Shown piece by piece: positions 3,768 through 16,486 of a stretch of DNA of 64,000 bases. Position numbers and translations under genes: made by a program. The notes under the pieces were generated by a model that saw nothing but the letters and a program-made list of their open reading frames with translations, was not told the DNA's origin and did not search any database. Within the stretch, counting starts at the first letter, position 1. The number at the start of each line of letters is the position of its first letter. The stretch lies in the NCBI RefSeq assembly GCF_004803915.1, contig NZ_CP039396.1, positions 2,976,001-3,040,000 of the forward strand, given 5' to 3'. This DNA comes from Duncaniella dubosii. Lineage in GTDB: Bacteria > Bacteroidota > Bacteroidia > Bacteroidales > Muribaculaceae.

Positions 3768-5138
3768 ACAATGATTCGGTAAAATTTGAGGTTGTTCAGC
3801 CTAGGCTAAGCCGCTAACTGAGCCAACCGATGATTTATTTTCTGAATTATTTTGAGATGCGGAGATTTTCCGCAAGTCGAAATAATTGTTGAGGCGAGAT
3901 AAGATTCAAACATAAGCCGTTTGAACTGTGCTAACGAAAGATCCGGATAATCTTTCCTTATGACCTCCTTGCAGACATTGAGTGCAGTGAAGGAAAGATT
4001 GAATGCGAAGTCAAGCCGGTCTTTGTCGCGTGTCTGTTGCGACTGGAGTCCTGTAAACTGTTTGGCATCGCGTATGCCGAACTCAATCTGAAAGCGGGTG
4101 CGGTAGAAACCGATGATCTTTTCAGACCTCATATTGGTGTCTGTAGAGAAGTAAAGAAGAGGCTCTGCGTTTTCAACCGGACAGACCACGATACGGATGT
4201 CGCGTTTCAATGCCCTCGAATGTACGACCGCCGTGTGACATCGGTTTTTGTTTCCTTTGGAATCCTCATATATGAATGAGGTGAACACGGACATATCAAG
4301 ATTGGAGAAATCCACTTTCTCTCCATACTTTTTCTTTCTGCCGCGTCTTCGCGGGGCGGAGGAATCCGGTATGGCCAGATACCTCAGATATGAGTTGGCA
4401 CGTAATCTCCCGACAAATCGAAATCCCATGCCAATCACTTCATTTACAAACTCATATTTGGAGAAAAAGGCATCGGCAACCAGAATATCCGTCAGTGAGA
4501 GCAGCTCTGTCGCCTTTGACCTGACAAGTGCCACATACCAGTCAAGCATTGACATTTGTTTCTCAGATTCAAGAGTCCTGAAGTTCGGTGACTGGACAGC
4601 ACCGAGCATCACGCATGTATGTTTACTCAGACTTATTGCCCCGATCGCCATTATCTCCAGACCGCGTTTGACACGTTGTGCCACCCCTGACCAGAAACGG
4701 CCTATGCCATACGTCAGTCTGCCTGCTTTTGAAATGAACGACGGATCGATTGCCACTGCCATGTCATCGGCCGGCCCAAAACAATCCTGCGCCATACCTA
4801 TGTTGACTTTCATCCAGTCTACGGATGTCTTGAAATTGGAGGCAAAGGTCTTGGCTGTACGACCGCCATAGCGCGACAGCCGGGTAAAATTGACTTTGCC
4901 CGGAATCAACGCTACAGTGCGTATTGTTAAAATCAGCCAGTTGAGGAACCTTTTGCTCATCTTGGTTGTAGTATTTTCAAATACCGACTTACACCGAAAG
5001 GTGAAGTCTTTGAGAATCGCCAATACGTTCATGGTATAAGTGTTTTATAATGAACGCTTTGGCGATTCATTTGTATTTGACAATTCGACATATTAACTTA
5101 AGTTTCAACTACTTCGGTAATTTTTACCGAATCATTGT
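3768..5138 (-). mobile_element. IS4-type insertion sequence (about 1.37 kb)
   Basis: A single transposase gene is bounded by near-identical terminal inverted repeats: ACAATGATTCGGTAAAA at 3768-3784 and its reverse complement at 5122-5138 (one mismatch near the inner end). I could not identify a convincing target duplication. The right end contains an additional internal palindrome (CGGTAATTTTTACCG). The element lies between rlmD and the CPBP protease gene. Confidence 0.75.
3806..5032 (-). CDS. IS4-family DDE transposase
   Basis: A 408-residue transposase catalysing cut-and-paste DNA transfer. The catalytic triad is visible: D96 (AIDPSF), D187 (VADAFF) and E317. E317 is within the IS4 signature Y-x2-R-x3-E-x6-K (Y310, R313, E317, K324). 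The first ~80 residues are basic and helical, as expected for end binding. The start is an ATG at 5032. The frame is intact, so the element may be active. It lies antisense to nothing and is the only gene of the element. Confidence 0.88.
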   Translation of the reverse strand: MNVLAILKDFTFRCKSVFENTTTKMSKRFLNWLILTIRTVALIPGKVNFTRLSRYGGRTAKTFASNFKTSVDWMKVNIGMAQDCFGPADDMAVAIDPSFISKAGRLTYGIGRFWSGVAQRVKRGLEIMAIGAISLSKHTCVMLGAVQSPNFRTLESEKQMSMLDWYVALVRSKATELLSLTDILVADAFFSKYEFVNEVIGMGFRFVGRLRANSYLRYLAIPDSSAPRRRGRKKKYGEKVDFSNLDMSVFTSFIYEDSKGNKNRCHTAVVHSRALKRDIRIVVCPVENAEPLLYFSTDTNMRSEKIIGFYRTRFQIEFGIRDAKQFTGLQSQQTRDKDRLDFAFNLSFTALNVCKEVIRKDYPDLSLAQFKRLMFESYLASTIISTCGKSPHLKIIQKINHRLAQLAA

Positions 5139-10346: not shown

Positions 10347-11735
10347 ATGTTAAAGGATTTATACGAAAAAAAGTTCGGAGCAGCACCTGCCTCAATCATT
10401 CCACTGACTCCGGCAGGAAGCAATCGACAATATTTCAGATTAACCGGCCCTGAGACCGTAATCGGTGTCATAGGCTGTTCGGTTGATGAAAACAAAGCGT
10501 TTATTTATCTTGCACGCCATTTTAAGTCCAAGGGGCTTCCTGTTCCCGGTGTCATCGCTGTTTCGGACGACGGAACGGAATATCTTCAAGATGACTTGGG
10601 CGATTGTCTGCTTTTCGACTGCCGTGATTCTGTCGAACTGTTGAAAAAGACGGTAGCATTGTTGCCCGATTTCCAGTATCGTGGCGCGGAAGACCTCGAC
10701 TTTTCACGTTGTTATCCTGTCAGTGATTTTGACAGTCAATCCATTTTATGGGATTTGAATTATTTTAAATATTGTTTTCTGAACACGACAGGAATATCCT
10801 ACAAAGAAGAATTGCTGGAAGAGGATTTTCGCCGGATGTCATCACAGCTGTCTACACCAGACTGCATGACGTTTATGATACGTGATTTTCAATCTCGCAA
10901 TGTGATGATTCGTAATGGCAATCCATATTTCATAGATTTTCAAGGCGGACGACGTGGTCCTGCCGAATATGACCTTGTGTCATTTGTAATGCAAGCCCGT
11001 GCGGCATATCCGTTATACGTTAAGGAAATTCTTATTGAGACCTACATCAAAAGTGCCTCGCGATACACAGTCATTGATCCTGATACTTTCCGTCAGCGGT
11101 TCAGGTCGTTTTCATTACTTCGGACACTACAAGTGCTTGGAGCTTACGGATTTCGTGGCAAATTCGAGCGAAAGGCCCATTTTATAAAGAGCATTCCCGC
11201 AGCACTTGCAAATTTGGCAGAACTGCTGAAAGAACCTTTTGACGATTATCCGTATCTTTCGGAGACTCTGGCCAGAATGCTTGAGTCTGAACAGGCAAAG
11301 ACAGATATATGTGAGGAAAAGCCTAAAAGCGCGCTGACTGTAACAGTCACAAGCTTCTCATATAAGAAAGGTATCCCGGCAGACTTGTCTGGTAATGGCG
11401 GTGGATTCGTGTTTGACTGCCGTGGCATGGAAAATCCGGGCAGATATGACGAATATAAACAGATAACCGGACTTGATGCCCCGGTAATTGAATTTCTCGA
11501 ACGCAAGGGAGAGATTATAACTTTCCTTGACCACTGTTTCGGGTTGGTAGACCCTTCTGTTGATTGTTACGACCGTCGCGGTTTCACATCACTTGCCGTC
11601 AATTTCGGTTGTACCGGCGGTCAGCACCGCAGTGTCTATTCTGCTCAGAAAATGGCTGAACATATCAAAGTTCGGTTTCCACATGTGAATGTCCACCTTA
11701 TCCATCGAGAACAAAAAATAGATCTCACACTATGA
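10347..11735 (+). CDS. AmgK-like aminoglycoside/sugar phosphotransferase fused to RapZ C-terminal domain
   Basis: A 462-residue two-domain protein. Residues 1-300 form an APH/choline-kinase fold: a nucleotide loop near TPAGSNRQYFR (21-31), a Brenner-type catalytic segment MIRDFQSRN (D180) and the metal-binding Asp in YFIDFQGG (D197). Residues about 330-462 resemble the C-terminal domain of RNase adapter RapZ (SFSYKKGIP, FDCRGMENPG, GCTGGQHRSVY near 420). RapZ's N-terminal P-loop ATPase is absent. The gene overlaps the next one (MurU-like nucleotidyltransferase) by ATGA. AmgK and MurU act consecutively in cell-wall amino-sugar salvage in Pseudomonas, so this half is probably a MurNAc/GlcNAc-type anomeric kinase. 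The RapZ part may sense an amino-sugar phosphate (inference). Confidence 0.85.
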   Translation: MLKDLYEKKFGAAPASIIPLTPAGSNRQYFRLTGPETVIGVIGCSVDENKAFIYLARHFKSKGLPVPGVIAVSDDGTEYLQDDLGDCLLFDCRDSVELLKKTVALLPDFQYRGAEDLDFSRCYPVSDFDSQSILWDLNYFKYCFLNTTGISYKEELLEEDFRRMSSQLSTPDCMTFMIRDFQSRNVMIRNGNPYFIDFQGGRRGPAEYDLVSFVMQARAAYPLYVKEILIETYIKSASRYTVIDPDTFRQRFRSFSLLRTLQVLGAYGFRGKFERKAHFIKSIPAALANLAELLKEPFDDYPYLSETLARMLESEQAKTDICEEKPKSALTVTVTSFSYKKGIPADLSGNGGGFVFDCRGMENPGRYDEYKQITGLDAPVIEFLERKGEIITFLDHCFGLVDPSVDCYDRRGFTSLAVNFGCTGGQHRSVYSAQKMAEHIKVRFPHVNVHLIHREQKIDLTL

Positions 11736-12499
11736 ACGCCATGATTTTTGCAGCCGGTCTAGGCACGCGCCTTGGCGCAATAACTTCGGCAAAGCCCAAG
11801 GCTTTGGTCGAAGTAGGAGGCGAACCGATGTTGAAACGAGTGATTCTGAAACTAAAAAATGCAGGTGTCAGCCGTATGGTAGTCAATGTCCATCATTTTG
11901 CCGATGCCATCGTATGCTATCTCAAGGCAAATGATAATTTCGGAATTGACATCAGAATCAGCGATGAACGTGCGCTTTTGCTCGATACCGGCGGAGGATT
12001 GCTCAAAGCCCGTCCATTTTTTGATAGTAACGAACCGATAATAGTTCATAATGCCGACATTCTGACAGATTTCGATATTTCACAAATGCTTGATTCTCAT
12101 ATAGAATCTAAAGCCGACGCGACTCTGCTCGTGGCAGACCGCCGCACATCACGCTATCTGCTTTTTGATGCCGACAGGCGTATGAAGGGTTGGAAAAATG
12201 TCACGACCGGCGAAATCCGCAGTCCTTGGCCTGATATAGTTTCCGCTGAAGGGATTATTCCTCTGGCATTTGGCGGTGTTCACATAATCAAACCTTCCAT
12301 ATTTTCTAAGCTTGAAAGATATAGTGATTCCTCGAAATTCTCAATCACGCCATTCTACACGGACCAATGCGCCGATTTATACATAAAAGGCTACACTCCG
12401 AAAGAAGTTTTTCACTGGATTGACATTGGTAAGCCACAATCGCTTATTGAGGCTGAAAATATTGTTTCAGAACTGCGGCCGACTCCTCTGCCGGAGTGA
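11732..12499 (+). CDS. MurU-like sugar-1-phosphate nucleotidyltransferase
   Basis: A 255-residue NTP-transferase. The signature FAAGLGTRLGAITSAKPKAL lies at the N-terminus (residues 6-25). A metal-binding Asp follows in IVHNADILTDFD, and a C-terminal HWIDIGKPQSL segment is typical of the family. It belongs with MurU/RmlA-like proteins that make NDP-sugars. The 4-base overlap with the upstream kinase supports a paired function, most likely uridylylation of the kinase product. Its 3' end overlaps the convergent menD coding sequence by 56 bases. Confidence 0.85.
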   Translation: MNAMIFAAGLGTRLGAITSAKPKALVEVGGEPMLKRVILKLKNAGVSRMVVNVHHFADAIVCYLKANDNFGIDIRISDERALLLDTGGGLLKARPFFDSNEPIIVHNADILTDFDISQMLDSHIESKADATLLVADRRTSRYLLFDADRRMKGWKNVTTGEIRSPWPDIVSAEGIIPLAFGGVHIIKPSIFSKLERYSDSSKFSITPFYTDQCADLYIKGYTPKEVFHWIDIGKPQSLIEAENIVSELRPTPLPE

Positions 12500-14132
12500 A
12501 TACCGCAAGAATTGACGGACGGTCTGTGACCGCAATGAATTCGCTGAATGATTGAGCCAATTCCTCCGCAGAGCTGGCTTCATGATATGAAAATCCGTAG
12601 CCGTCTGCAAGCTGGCGCAGAGGGAGACGTGTCCCTACTGCAAAATATCTGTCAAGCTCAGGAAGCGATGATGTGGATGAGATAAAGCGGAATATCCCTC
12701 CTCCGCCATTGCAGATTACGATTATTTTAAATCGTGGAGTGACAATCATTGACGACAGTGCAGCAATATCATACTGGCAACTCATGTCGCCGGTTATAAG
12801 TAGGGTCGTGTCCTTATAGACAGATGATGCACCAAGGGCTGTTGATGTACATCCGTCAATACCGCTGACACCTCTGTTGCAGTCGCAACGATGGATATGG
12901 CTGCAATCCATCAATTGTGCATAACGTACAGGCGTGCCGTTTGACAGATGTAAATTCCATCGTTGCGGAACGTGCGGTATGATATAAGCGAAAACACTCA
13001 TGTCCGACCACGGAACTGAATCGACATATTTTTCATGAAGTTTGGCGGCTTTAGATGCGAGATTATGCCAGCGTACGGCATAATCAGAAGACGCTTTATG
13101 AATCTGCAATGCAGATGCAAGCTGCCGGAGGAAAACAGCCGGCTGCATTTCCACTCTCAGAGCCAGATGGCGGAAGCAATCGACAGTTGTATGTGTGATC
13201 CCTATATGCCAGTGCTCAACTTCGGTGTCGAGCGAACGCAACCATTCTTTTACAAATCGTGACACGAGCGCTCCCCCGGCAGTTATAACGACATCCGGGG
13301 CCATTTCAATGCGTTCTGTTTCTGTCATTCGGCATAATGTCGAATCAATACGGCTGACGAACAATGGGGAGTGGAGATTTGCTATTGTCTCAGTCATAAC
13401 TGCGACGTTCGGGAGACGAGCAAGTTTTACCAGCGCCCGGTTTAATTTTTCATCAGGTTCGTGAAACCCTACTATGATAAGCACCTTGCGCGGAGATGCG
13501 ATGTTCTCCCCTATCCGCCGAGCCTCGGCTGTCGGCAGCTCGACTGAAGGGGCAACCATTCTGACAACCCGGCTTCGGCCATCGTCGAAATCAGATATGC
13601 GGTCAAGCGGAGCGTCTATCCGTATGTTTATATGCACCGGGCCTTTCCGCCCTGCAAGAGCTTCAAGCAGCAAGTCATTGACAAGTCTGTTGCATACCCA
13701 TTCTCCGTTTGGAAAATCAGTATGAGCCGGCAGGTCACAACTGCGTTTGACATACGGCGCGAGAGCATCCTGTTGCCAGATGGTTTGCGAATCATCCTGA
13801 TCAATCCATTCCTGTGGCCTGTCAGCAGAAATCACTATTAGCGGGCAGCAACGATAGAAAGCTTCGGCAATTGCCGGAGCATAGTTAAGCAGAGCAGAAC
13901 CACTTGTGCATACTATTGCCACAGGCTCTCCGCTTTGGACAGTCATGCCAAGCGCGATAAATCCCGCAGAGCGTTCATCAATGACCACTTGCGTAGCCAA
14001 TTCTTTACGACGAGAGAGAGCGACTATCAATGGCGCGTTTCTGCTTCCCGGTGATAGAACGACATGCCGCACACCATGAGCGACAAGGAGATCTGCGAGG
14101 ATGTTACATGAGAGTTTATCGGTTGTAAGCAT
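12444..14132 (-). CDS. menD: 2-succinyl-5-enolpyruvyl-6-hydroxy-3-cyclohexene-1-carboxylate synthase (MenD)
   Basis: A thiamine-diphosphate enzyme of menaquinone synthesis joining isochorismate and 2-oxoglutarate. The N-terminal Pyr-domain motif is HVVLSPGSRNAPL, followed by the conserved glutamate segment (DERSAGFIALG) and the CTSGSALLNY loop. The C-terminal PP domain contains GDMSCQYDIAAL and CNGGGGIFRF, the ThDP/metal-binding region. The ATG at 14132 is preferred because the longer frame to 14159 opens with TTG and adds residues not seen in the family. No other men genes are in the window. The 3' end overlaps the convergent nucleotidyltransferase gene. Confidence 0.93.
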   Translation of the reverse strand: MLTTDKLSCNILADLLVAHGVRHVVLSPGSRNAPLIVALSRRKELATQVVIDERSAGFIALGMTVQSGEPVAIVCTSGSALLNYAPAIAEAFYRCCPLIVISADRPQEWIDQDDSQTIWQQDALAPYVKRSCDLPAHTDFPNGEWVCNRLVNDLLLEALAGRKGPVHINIRIDAPLDRISDFDDGRSRVVRMVAPSVELPTAEARRIGENIASPRKVLIIVGFHEPDEKLNRALVKLARLPNVAVMTETIANLHSPLFVSRIDSTLCRMTETERIEMAPDVVITAGGALVSRFVKEWLRSLDTEVEHWHIGITHTTVDCFRHLALRVEMQPAVFLRQLASALQIHKASSDYAVRWHNLASKAAKLHEKYVDSVPWSDMSVFAYIIPHVPQRWNLHLSNGTPVRYAQLMDCSHIHRCDCNRGVSGIDGCTSTALGASSVYKDTTLLITGDMSCQYDIAALSSMIVTPRFKIIVICNGGGGIFRFISSTSSLPELDRYFAVGTRLPLRQLADGYGFSYHEASSAEELAQSFSEFIAVTDRPSILAVFTPAEESAAVLKQYFQPQ

Positions 14133-14207
14133 GATCAGATTGATTGAAATTTCGTGCAAAAATACAAATATTGGCGCAACCTCACATCAAATTATTGTGG
14201 AATGTGT

Positions 14208-15050: not shown

Positions 15051-16486
15051 TATTGCTGTCCGATAAAACTTTTTGAGGCAAAACAAAATTAGGACTGGCA
15101 CCTATTGCAGGAGTCAGTCCTTTTAGTTTAGTTTGTGTTGGTCAAAACATATTCTAAACTATGCCCAAAAGTAGTCATTTTAGCGGACAGCCGCTCTATG
15201 GTCAGGTAATAAAACTGCTTGACAAGTCGAAAATTCTTCAGTTTAGCCGCGAATACGGAGGAGAGAGATATACCAAACGGTTTAACTGCTGGATTCATCT
15301 GGTGGTAATGCTCTATGCCGTGATAATGCGATTCGACTCATTGCGTGAGATAACAGCCAGTTTGCTTGCCGAGACGCGTAAACTGTCTCATATAGGTATT
15401 ACTTTCAAAATCGGGCGCAGCACACTTGCGGATGCCAACAAGAGGCGCCCCGAAGCTATATTTGAGGCTATATATCGTGATCTATATGCCACTTACCGCC
15501 ACGTTCTTTCCTCGGACAGCCACAGCCGCAAGACTCCAAAATGGATGAAACGACTGCAGATTATCGACTCCACGACTATTACTCTGTTCTCCAACCTGCT
15601 GTTCAAGGGAGTCGGACGCCATCCAAAGACCGGAAAAAAGAAAGGCGGAATCAAGGTTCATACCGTCATACATGCCAACGAAGGTGTGCCGTCGGATATA
15701 AAGTTCACATCAGCGGCTACAAACGACTCATTCATGCTCAAGCCAACAACATTGAGTAAAGGCGACATAATGGCAATGGACCGCGCATACATCGACTATG
15801 AGAAGTTCCAACAACTGACGGAGCGTGGCGTAACATACGTCACCAAGATGAAGAAGAACCTGAAATACAGCATATTGTCGGACACTATGTATCAGACTCC
15901 TGACGGACTGATGGAGGTCAGGATACAGCAAGTGGAGTTTGTAAAGCAGGTTAAAGGCGGAGAGGTCATTCGACATAAATCACGCATAATCACTTATGTG
16001 GATGTCAAGAAGCGCAAACTGATATCGCTGCTGACCAACGATATGGAGTCCGACCCGGAGGAAATCATCGCGATATACCGACAGAGATGGGAAATTGAGC
16101 TGCTGTTCAAGCAGATGAAACAAAACTTTCCACTTAAATACTTCTATGGCGAGAGCGCCAATGCCATCAAGATCCAGATCTGGATCACACTAATCGCCAA
16201 TCTACTGCTGATGGTTATGCAGAAGGGGCTGAAACGCCAGTGGAGCTTCTCCGGGCTGGCAACAATGGTCAGAATTACCCTGATGTACTACGTTGACTTC
16301 AACAGCCTGTTTAACAACCCGGAAAAAGAGTGGGAAATCATCCTTTCCGAGGCCTCCGGAGCGCCTCCCGAACCGTCATTGTTTGACTGAGGGGGCTTGT
16401 AAGGTAAAAAAGAAGACTCGAACACCGTAAAATCAGCGTTCGAGCCATACTTTATTGCGCTATTTGAGTTTTATCGGACAGCAATA
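15051..16486 (+). mobile_element. IS4-family insertion sequence (1436 bp) with 9-bp target duplication
   Basis: Perfect 20-bp terminal inverted repeats begin TATTGCTGTCC, at 15051-15070 and 16467-16486. The flanks carry the direct repeat AATTACTTT at 15042-15050 and 16487-16495, the target duplication. Just inside the left end a GGACTG/CAGTCC hairpin plus TTTTAG (15092-15125) would block read-in transcription. A CTCGAAC/GTTCGAG hairpin lies at 16417-16444. Perfect ends and an intact transposase indicate a recent insertion. Confidence 0.93.
15161..16390 (+). CDS. IS4-family transposase (DUF4372-type N-terminus)
   Basis: A 409-residue DDE transposase. The N-terminal ~75 residues (FSGQPLYGQVIKLL, RFNCWIHLVVML) match the DUF4372 type seen in Bacteroidetes IS4 elements. 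Catalytic residues are D136 (IIDSTT), D207 (AMDRAY) and E313, within Y306-x2-R309-x3-E313-x6-K320. It differs in sequence from the transposase at 3806-5032. The coding frame is intact and starts 110 bases inside the left repeat. Confidence 0.92.
   Translation: MPKSSHFSGQPLYGQVIKLLDKSKILQFSREYGGERYTKRFNCWIHLVVMLYAVIMRFDSLREITASLLAETRKLSHIGITFKIGRSTLADANKRRPEAIFEAIYRDLYATYRHVLSSDSHSRKTPKWMKRLQIIDSTTITLFSNLLFKGVGRHPKTGKKKGGIKVHTVIHANEGVPSDIKFTSAATNDSFMLKPTTLSKGDIMAMDRAYIDYEKFQQLTERGVTYVTKMKKNLKYSILSDTMYQTPDGLMEVRIQQVEFVKQVKGGEVIRHKSRIITYVDVKKRKLISLLTNDMESDPEEIIAIYRQRWEIELLFKQMKQNFPLKYFYGESANAIKIQIWITLIANLLLMVMQKGLKRQWSFSGLATMVRITLMYYVDFNSLFNNPEKEWEIILSEASGAPPEPSLFD

Follow-up and report, generated by a model that had tools for sequence, protein, structure and literature searches.

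The window analysed here, a stretch of 64,000 nucleotides from Duncaniella dubosii, encodes on its forward strand a protein of 462 aa (10347..11735) in which an AmgK-like sugar kinase is joined to the C-terminal domain of RapZ (hereafter RapZ-C). The kinase part (approximately residues 1-320; 10347..11306, +) has an APH kinase fold with the catalytic Asp and Asn present, and is recognised by the APH-type kinase profile PF01636 (33.6 bits, cut-off 23.2). Its R-D-F-Q-S-R-N stretch (residues 179-185; 10881..10901, +), which we take from the APH family to be the catalytic loop, is invariant in 71 sequences at R179, D180, Q182, S183, R184 and N185 and conserved to at least 90% at F181. Within the D-F-Q stretch (residues 197-199; 10935..10943, +), Q199 and D197 are invariant in 71 sequences as well, D197 being presumably a metal ligand, again by analogy with the APH family. 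The best curated kinase model for the fusion is AmgK, yet the score of 37.7 bits compares with an NCBIfam equivalog cut-off of 550 bits; the corresponding fusion protein of Tannerella forsythia reaches 66.3 bits against the same cut-off.

RapZ-C occupies residues 330-456 (11334..11714, +), where it is identified both by profile (PF22740, 108.6 bits against a cut-off of 27) and by fold, which agrees with that of the solved RapZ-C from Escherichia coli (5o5s); a different fold for this part was rejected in the same comparison. The whole-protein RapZ model of NCBIfam stays below its cut-off (98.9 versus 244 bits), and the profile search found no RapZ P-loop ATPase domain (PF03668) in the protein. 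Compared with E. coli RapZ, the fusion hence lacks the ATPase domain and carries a sugar kinase instead. The domain contains the phosphate loop C-T-G-G-Q-H-R-S (residues 422-429; 11610..11633, +), which corresponds to residues 247-254 of E. coli RapZ and follows the pattern CxxGxxR[ST].

Through an ATGA overlap (11732..11735, +) the fusion gene runs into a gene for a MurU-like nucleotidyltransferase of 255 aa (11732..12499, +). MurU is the best-fitting model for this protein, although the scores remain below the cut-offs of both MurU equivalog models (124.7 versus 370 bits and 116.3 versus 250 bits). Its closest solved relatives by sequence are 4y7t (3.3e-22), labelled as a nucleotidyl transferase and in our assumption MurU itself, and 8hhd (7.4e-19), labelled as an N-acetylmuramate alpha-1-phosphate uridylyltransferase. 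Both window proteins differ from AmgK and MurU of Pseudomonas in lying far below the equivalog cut-offs, and for this reason "AmgK-like" and "MurU-like" are the names that can safely be given on sequence grounds. The original prediction, which had described a fusion of an AmgK-like kinase with RapZ-C but not with the ATPase, together with a RapZ-C fold and an overlapping MurU-like gene downstream, is confirmed on all these points. Besides, the MurU-like gene overlaps tail to tail, by 56 bases (12444-12499), with an ORF on the opposite strand (12444-14159) that we take to be MenD-like, and two ORFs of about 400 aa, presumably transposase-like, flank the fusion region at 3806-5032 (-) and 15161-16390 (+).

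Distribution of fused and separate forms

While the original prediction had implied an unusual fusion, the arrangement is typical of Bacteroidales. An even draw of 198 genomes over this order contained 159 with RapZ-C, for the most part in ORFs of some 480 aa, so that a rare or window-specific fusion can be rejected; in a draw over Bacteroidota as a whole, RapZ-C was found in 36 of 296 genomes. A protein search with the fusion returned at least 8000 candidates, all matching over some part, and both Pfam domains were present in 120 of the 120 matches listed. The nearest named relatives belong to Duncaniella and other Muribaculaceae; Phocaeicola vulgatus ATCC 8482 (L033) has the fusion as well. 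One contig titled Paenibacillus, with a fusion of 59% identity (L009), is probably a mis-binned Bacteroidales contig.

Among the 140 loci that we read, the window's own included, 136 were fused and four separate, in a sample that leans to fusions because 80 of the loci were the best matches to a fused query. The genome draws over order and phylum contained at least 17 places with a separate RapZ-C (frame below 200 codons), and the genes in the 17 places listed measured 129-144 codons. In 15 of these 17, an AmgK-like gene of the same strand immediately preceded RapZ-C; a MurU-like gene followed directly in 11 of the 17 and at a distance of about 3 kb in L155. As to the fused loci, a MurU-like gene was located at most 500 nt downstream in 79 of the 81 retrieved with the fused query, among them the window, and in 35 of the 55 from the genome draws, for which no more than about 1.5 kb of flanking sequence was covered. 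The order kinase, RapZ-C, MurU is thus common to fused and separate genes, and since it is kept in both kinds of locus, the three functions tend to stay together whether or not they are fused. When mapped onto a tree built from 52 kinase parts, separation of the genes requires four changes, two of which are forced by well-supported branches. Two separate RapZ-C genes (L147, L148) had neither a kinase nor a MurU-like gene within the 11 kb read (about 5 kb each way) and may act alone, and one fused frame of 736 codons (L158:5073-7283) carries an N-terminal B3/4 domain in front of kinase and RapZ-C. The RapZ ATPase domain (PF03668) was absent from all 80 genomes of the set described below, with positive controls in E. 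coli and five others; RapZ-C here does not represent one part of a divided RapZ.

Conservation of the ligand pocket and of RNA-contact residues

The loop C-T-G-G-x-H-R-S (C247, T248, G249, G250, H252, R253 and S254 in E. coli numbering) was identical in 154 of 154 places, 137 of them fused and 17 separate. It is located between a strand and a helix and in every place fits the signature CxxGxxR[ST], in which it resembles the cysteine-dependent tyrosine and dual-specificity phosphatases. The pocket residues C247, T248, G249, H252 and R253 were likewise kept in all 154 places, while H190 was replaced by Gly in 134 of the 137 fused and in all separate rows. An Asp is found at position 176 in 136 and at position 182 in all 137 fused rows, both of them candidates only for the general acid of a phosphatase, and the match of RapZ-C to phosphatase folds was weak, at noise level. 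A likeness of RapZ to tyrosine phosphatases is already noted in the literature: in work on E. coli, the pocket is described as resembling the loop of cysteine-dependent tyrosine phosphatases, RapZ-C is reported to bind glucosamine-6-phosphate (GlcN6P) by itself with a KD of 10 nM, C247S to abolish RapZ activity, and the putative GlcN6P site to be highly conserved in RapZ homologs. We infer that the loop of the Bacteroidales domain probably binds an amino sugar 6-phosphate, too.

The RNA side of RapZ is less well preserved. Seven basic RNA-contact residues have been named (K170, R184, K194, R196, R211, R238, K251; PMC9841335). Of the 137 fused rows, 134, 137 and 109 have a basic residue at K170, R184 and R196, and 78 have one at K194; the same is true of 117 rows at position 171 and of 135 at position 236. 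By contrast, R211 is basic in no more than 21 rows, R238 in 0 and K251 in 11. Tail positions 270 and 281-283, which we assume to belong to the RNA-binding set, are basic in only 0, 12, 21 and 12. Relative to E. coli RapZ, the fusion has hence lost three of the seven RNA-contact basics and the basic tail, and has a Gly at H190. The shared fold and the positions that stayed mostly basic would suit an RNA-binding adaptor linking the enzyme to a regulatory RNA in the manner known from E. coli; yet given these losses, the lack of the ATPase domain in 80 of 80 genomes, and a report that only Enterobacteriaceae have the RNA-binding part (PMC7073468), we regard such a role as very improbable. RapZ-C might also serve the kinase as a dimerisation or stability module with no ligand function. 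The E. coli domain is described as dimerising alone in a manner that requires D182, a residue that all 137 fused rows retain. However, neither the invariant ligand loop nor the observation that the domain is missing only where 6-kinases are absent (in few events) fits a purely structural part, and we consider it quite unlikely.

Co-occurrence with amino sugar kinases, MurQ and GlmS

For the co-occurrence analysis, 80 genomes were picked by hand: 47 with RapZ-C, chosen mainly for completeness and extended by T. forsythia, P. vulgatus and P. gordonii, as well as 33 that lack the domain (20 of the 39 such genomes in the order draw and 13 from the phylum draw). AnmK was present in 45 of the 80. 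MurQ was present in 40 at a threshold of at least 100 bits, set because many weaker matches were GlmS-sized frames; 37 of the 40 were also over the model cut-off. The genomes with AnmK were divided by MurQ according to RapZ-C: where RapZ-C was present, seven had MurQ and 21 did not, whereas without RapZ-C 15 had it and two did not (Fisher p 4.6e-5, ignoring kinship). AnmK-less genomes showed no such link (10 and 9 versus 8 and 8). The combination of AnmK with missing MurQ resembles the rule that was used to seek MupP in Pseudomonas (PMC5371407), and the 21 genomes in question would be expected to depend on a MurNAc-6P phosphatase if the AnmK product is to be used. A Gph/MupP-like HAD protein over the TIGR01449 cut-off was found in none of 26 genomes searched, which comprised the 21, another three from the family of the window and two with names. 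Weaker HAD matches occurred in 25 of the 26, which may therefore still have a MupP, and G398 was left without any match.

An AmgK-like kinase was found in all 47 RapZ-C genomes and in five others (G297, G313, G390, G392, G417), in which the kinase frames measure 344-384 codons and, in G313 and G417, directly abut or overlap the MurU-like gene. In two loci with kinase genes that lack RapZ-C (L176, L179), the kinase gene stands between the MurU-like gene and another gene directly upstream, which we take to be RNase Y-like. AnmK and MurQ were absent from all five kinase genomes without RapZ-C. With T. forsythia MurK as query, MurK-like genes were detected in 43 of the 47 (weakly in G013, 37.6 bits) versus none of the five. 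We had expected such 6-kinases to be absent from the five and to occur in those RapZ-C genomes without AnmK, an expectation that was written down after the result. AnmK or a MurK-like gene was present in 45 of 47 versus 0 of 5 (Fisher p 8e-6, ignoring kinship), and AnmK alone in 28 of 47 versus 0 of 5 (p 0.016). On the kinase tree, which has long branches and a bootstrap that did not settle, the absence of RapZ-C from the five genomes takes four changes, two of them forced by well-supported branches; the differing pairs (two on well-supported branches, four on all) all go in the expected direction, in numbers for which significance is out of reach.

GlmS, on the other hand, was unlinked to RapZ-C (42 of 47 versus 4 of 5; Fisher p 0.47), which does not support the idea that the domain is retained on account of GlmS or the supply of GlcN6P. 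Six of the 52 kinase genomes had no GlmS over the cut-off, and five of them keep the fusion: T. forsythia (G491), P. gordonii (G493), G230, G389 and G473. The lack of GlmS is known for T. forsythia and may be shared by the other four and by the sixth genome, G392. The original prediction had proposed that RapZ-C senses an amino-sugar phosphate, as E. coli RapZ does glucosamine-6-phosphate; in the 52 genomes, with only two to four independent losses, the domain follows AnmK and MurK-like kinases rather than GlmS. A sensor of GlmS-made GlcN6P that tunes recycling to de novo supply, as in E. coli, would agree with the known ligand of E. coli RapZ-C, the reported conservation of its site and the loop residues conserved in Bacteroidales. 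It is nevertheless unlikely in view of the independence from GlmS, the five genomes that keep the fusion without it and the exchange of the pocket residue H190, and retains some probability because GlcN6P can also be obtained from NagA.

Tannerella forsythia

T. forsythia ATCC 43037, for which salvage through AmgK and MurU has been proposed, carries the same fusion together with a MurU-like gene (L044). The respective papers state that this organism lacks glmS, glmU, murA and murB (PMC5790795), is thought to make UDP-MurNAc via AmgK and MurU (PMC7670621), and forms MurNAc-6P by means of MurK and K1058 (PMC10465942). Its genome encodes three APH-family proteins, of which the AmgK models match the fusion only; of the other two, one has no closer family and one is a Kdo-type kinase. 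Since MurNAc-6P comes from MurK and K1058 and only the fusion matches the AmgK models, it is the fused kinase that most plausibly acts as MurNAc 1-kinase in T. forsythia, ahead of the APH protein with no closer family, which may also do so. RapZ is not mentioned in the two Tannerella papers searched for that name, and in the literature searched, we found no report that treats RapZ together with AmgK.

Discussion

Homology, gene order and the comparison with Tannerella suggest that the fusion and the MurU-like protein very probably work in the salvage of peptidoglycan amino sugars. The N-terminal kinase would place a phosphate on carbon 1 of MurNAc (or GlcNAc), and this 1-phosphate would be converted to UDP-MurNAc by the MurU-like product. 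The link to wall-sugar salvage that had been drawn in the original prediction is supported. As in the AmgK-MurU recycling of Pseudomonas, a kinase is followed by a MurU-like enzyme, often in genomes with AnmK and without MurQ. In contrast to Pseudomonas, however, RapZ-C sits beside the kinase, and the 26 genomes searched had no Gph/MupP-like HAD protein over the cut-off.

The part that RapZ-C plays in this salvage may be catalysis as much as sensing, because the phosphate loop that it has kept also carries the signature of cysteine phosphatases. We consider it most likely that RapZ-C is a MurNAc-6P phosphatase in the role of MupP, with a probability of roughly 0.4. The domain would dephosphorylate MurNAc-6P through its invariant cysteine and arginine and so take over the step of the unrelated MupP in Pseudomonas, and MurNAc-6P would be turned via MurNAc into MurNAc-1P within one protein, possibly by channelling. 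MupP is a HAD enzyme; RapZ-C would share its reaction and its place in the pathway, yet with a different fold and the use of a cysteine loop. The phosphatase is ranked above a sensor because the cysteine is invariant, because such a step appears to be required by AnmK genomes that lack MurQ, and because the domain adjoins the enzyme that would use the product. The noise-level fold match and a general acid represented only by candidate residues speak against it, and so does the window's own genome, which has a MurK-like kinase but neither AnmK nor MurQ, so that a phosphatase may be futile there.

A close rival is a non-catalytic RapZ-C that senses salvage-derived MurNAc-6P, GlcNAc-6P or GlcN-6P and serves as an allosteric switch that activates or shuts down the kinase, so that direct UDP-MurNAc salvage is kept in balance with catabolism. 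Such a sensor would be in line with the tight GlcN6P binding reported for E. coli RapZ-C, with the position of the domain in or beside the kinase, and with its occurrence alongside 6-kinases, also in genomes that have a MurK-like gene but no AnmK and in which a phosphatase would be futile. It explains less readily why the cysteine does not vary in any of the 154 places, when phosphate binding alone would appear to need less, how the 21 AnmK genomes without MurQ obtain the phosphatase activity they seem to require, or what a RapZ-C with no kinase gene within about 5 kb on either side (L147, L148) would regulate. We regard this sensor as possible, if doubtful. Extending the phosphatase reading to the whole family, we would tentatively propose that RapZ-C was at its root a cysteine-dependent amino-sugar-6-phosphate phosphatase, that the Bacteroidota fusion is a two-step replacement of MupP, and that sensing by E. 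coli RapZ is derived.

If RapZ-C acts as a salvage phosphatase or sensor, the database label "RNase adapter RapZ", attached to some of the fusion proteins, would need correcting, and the domain would gain a role outside RNA control. The question whether E. coli RapZ hydrolyses GlcN6P would also become approachable by a simple assay on the fused enzyme. Either way, phosphatase or sensor, this would explain how the AmgK-MurU route is closed without a recognised MupP in a large group of gut bacteria.
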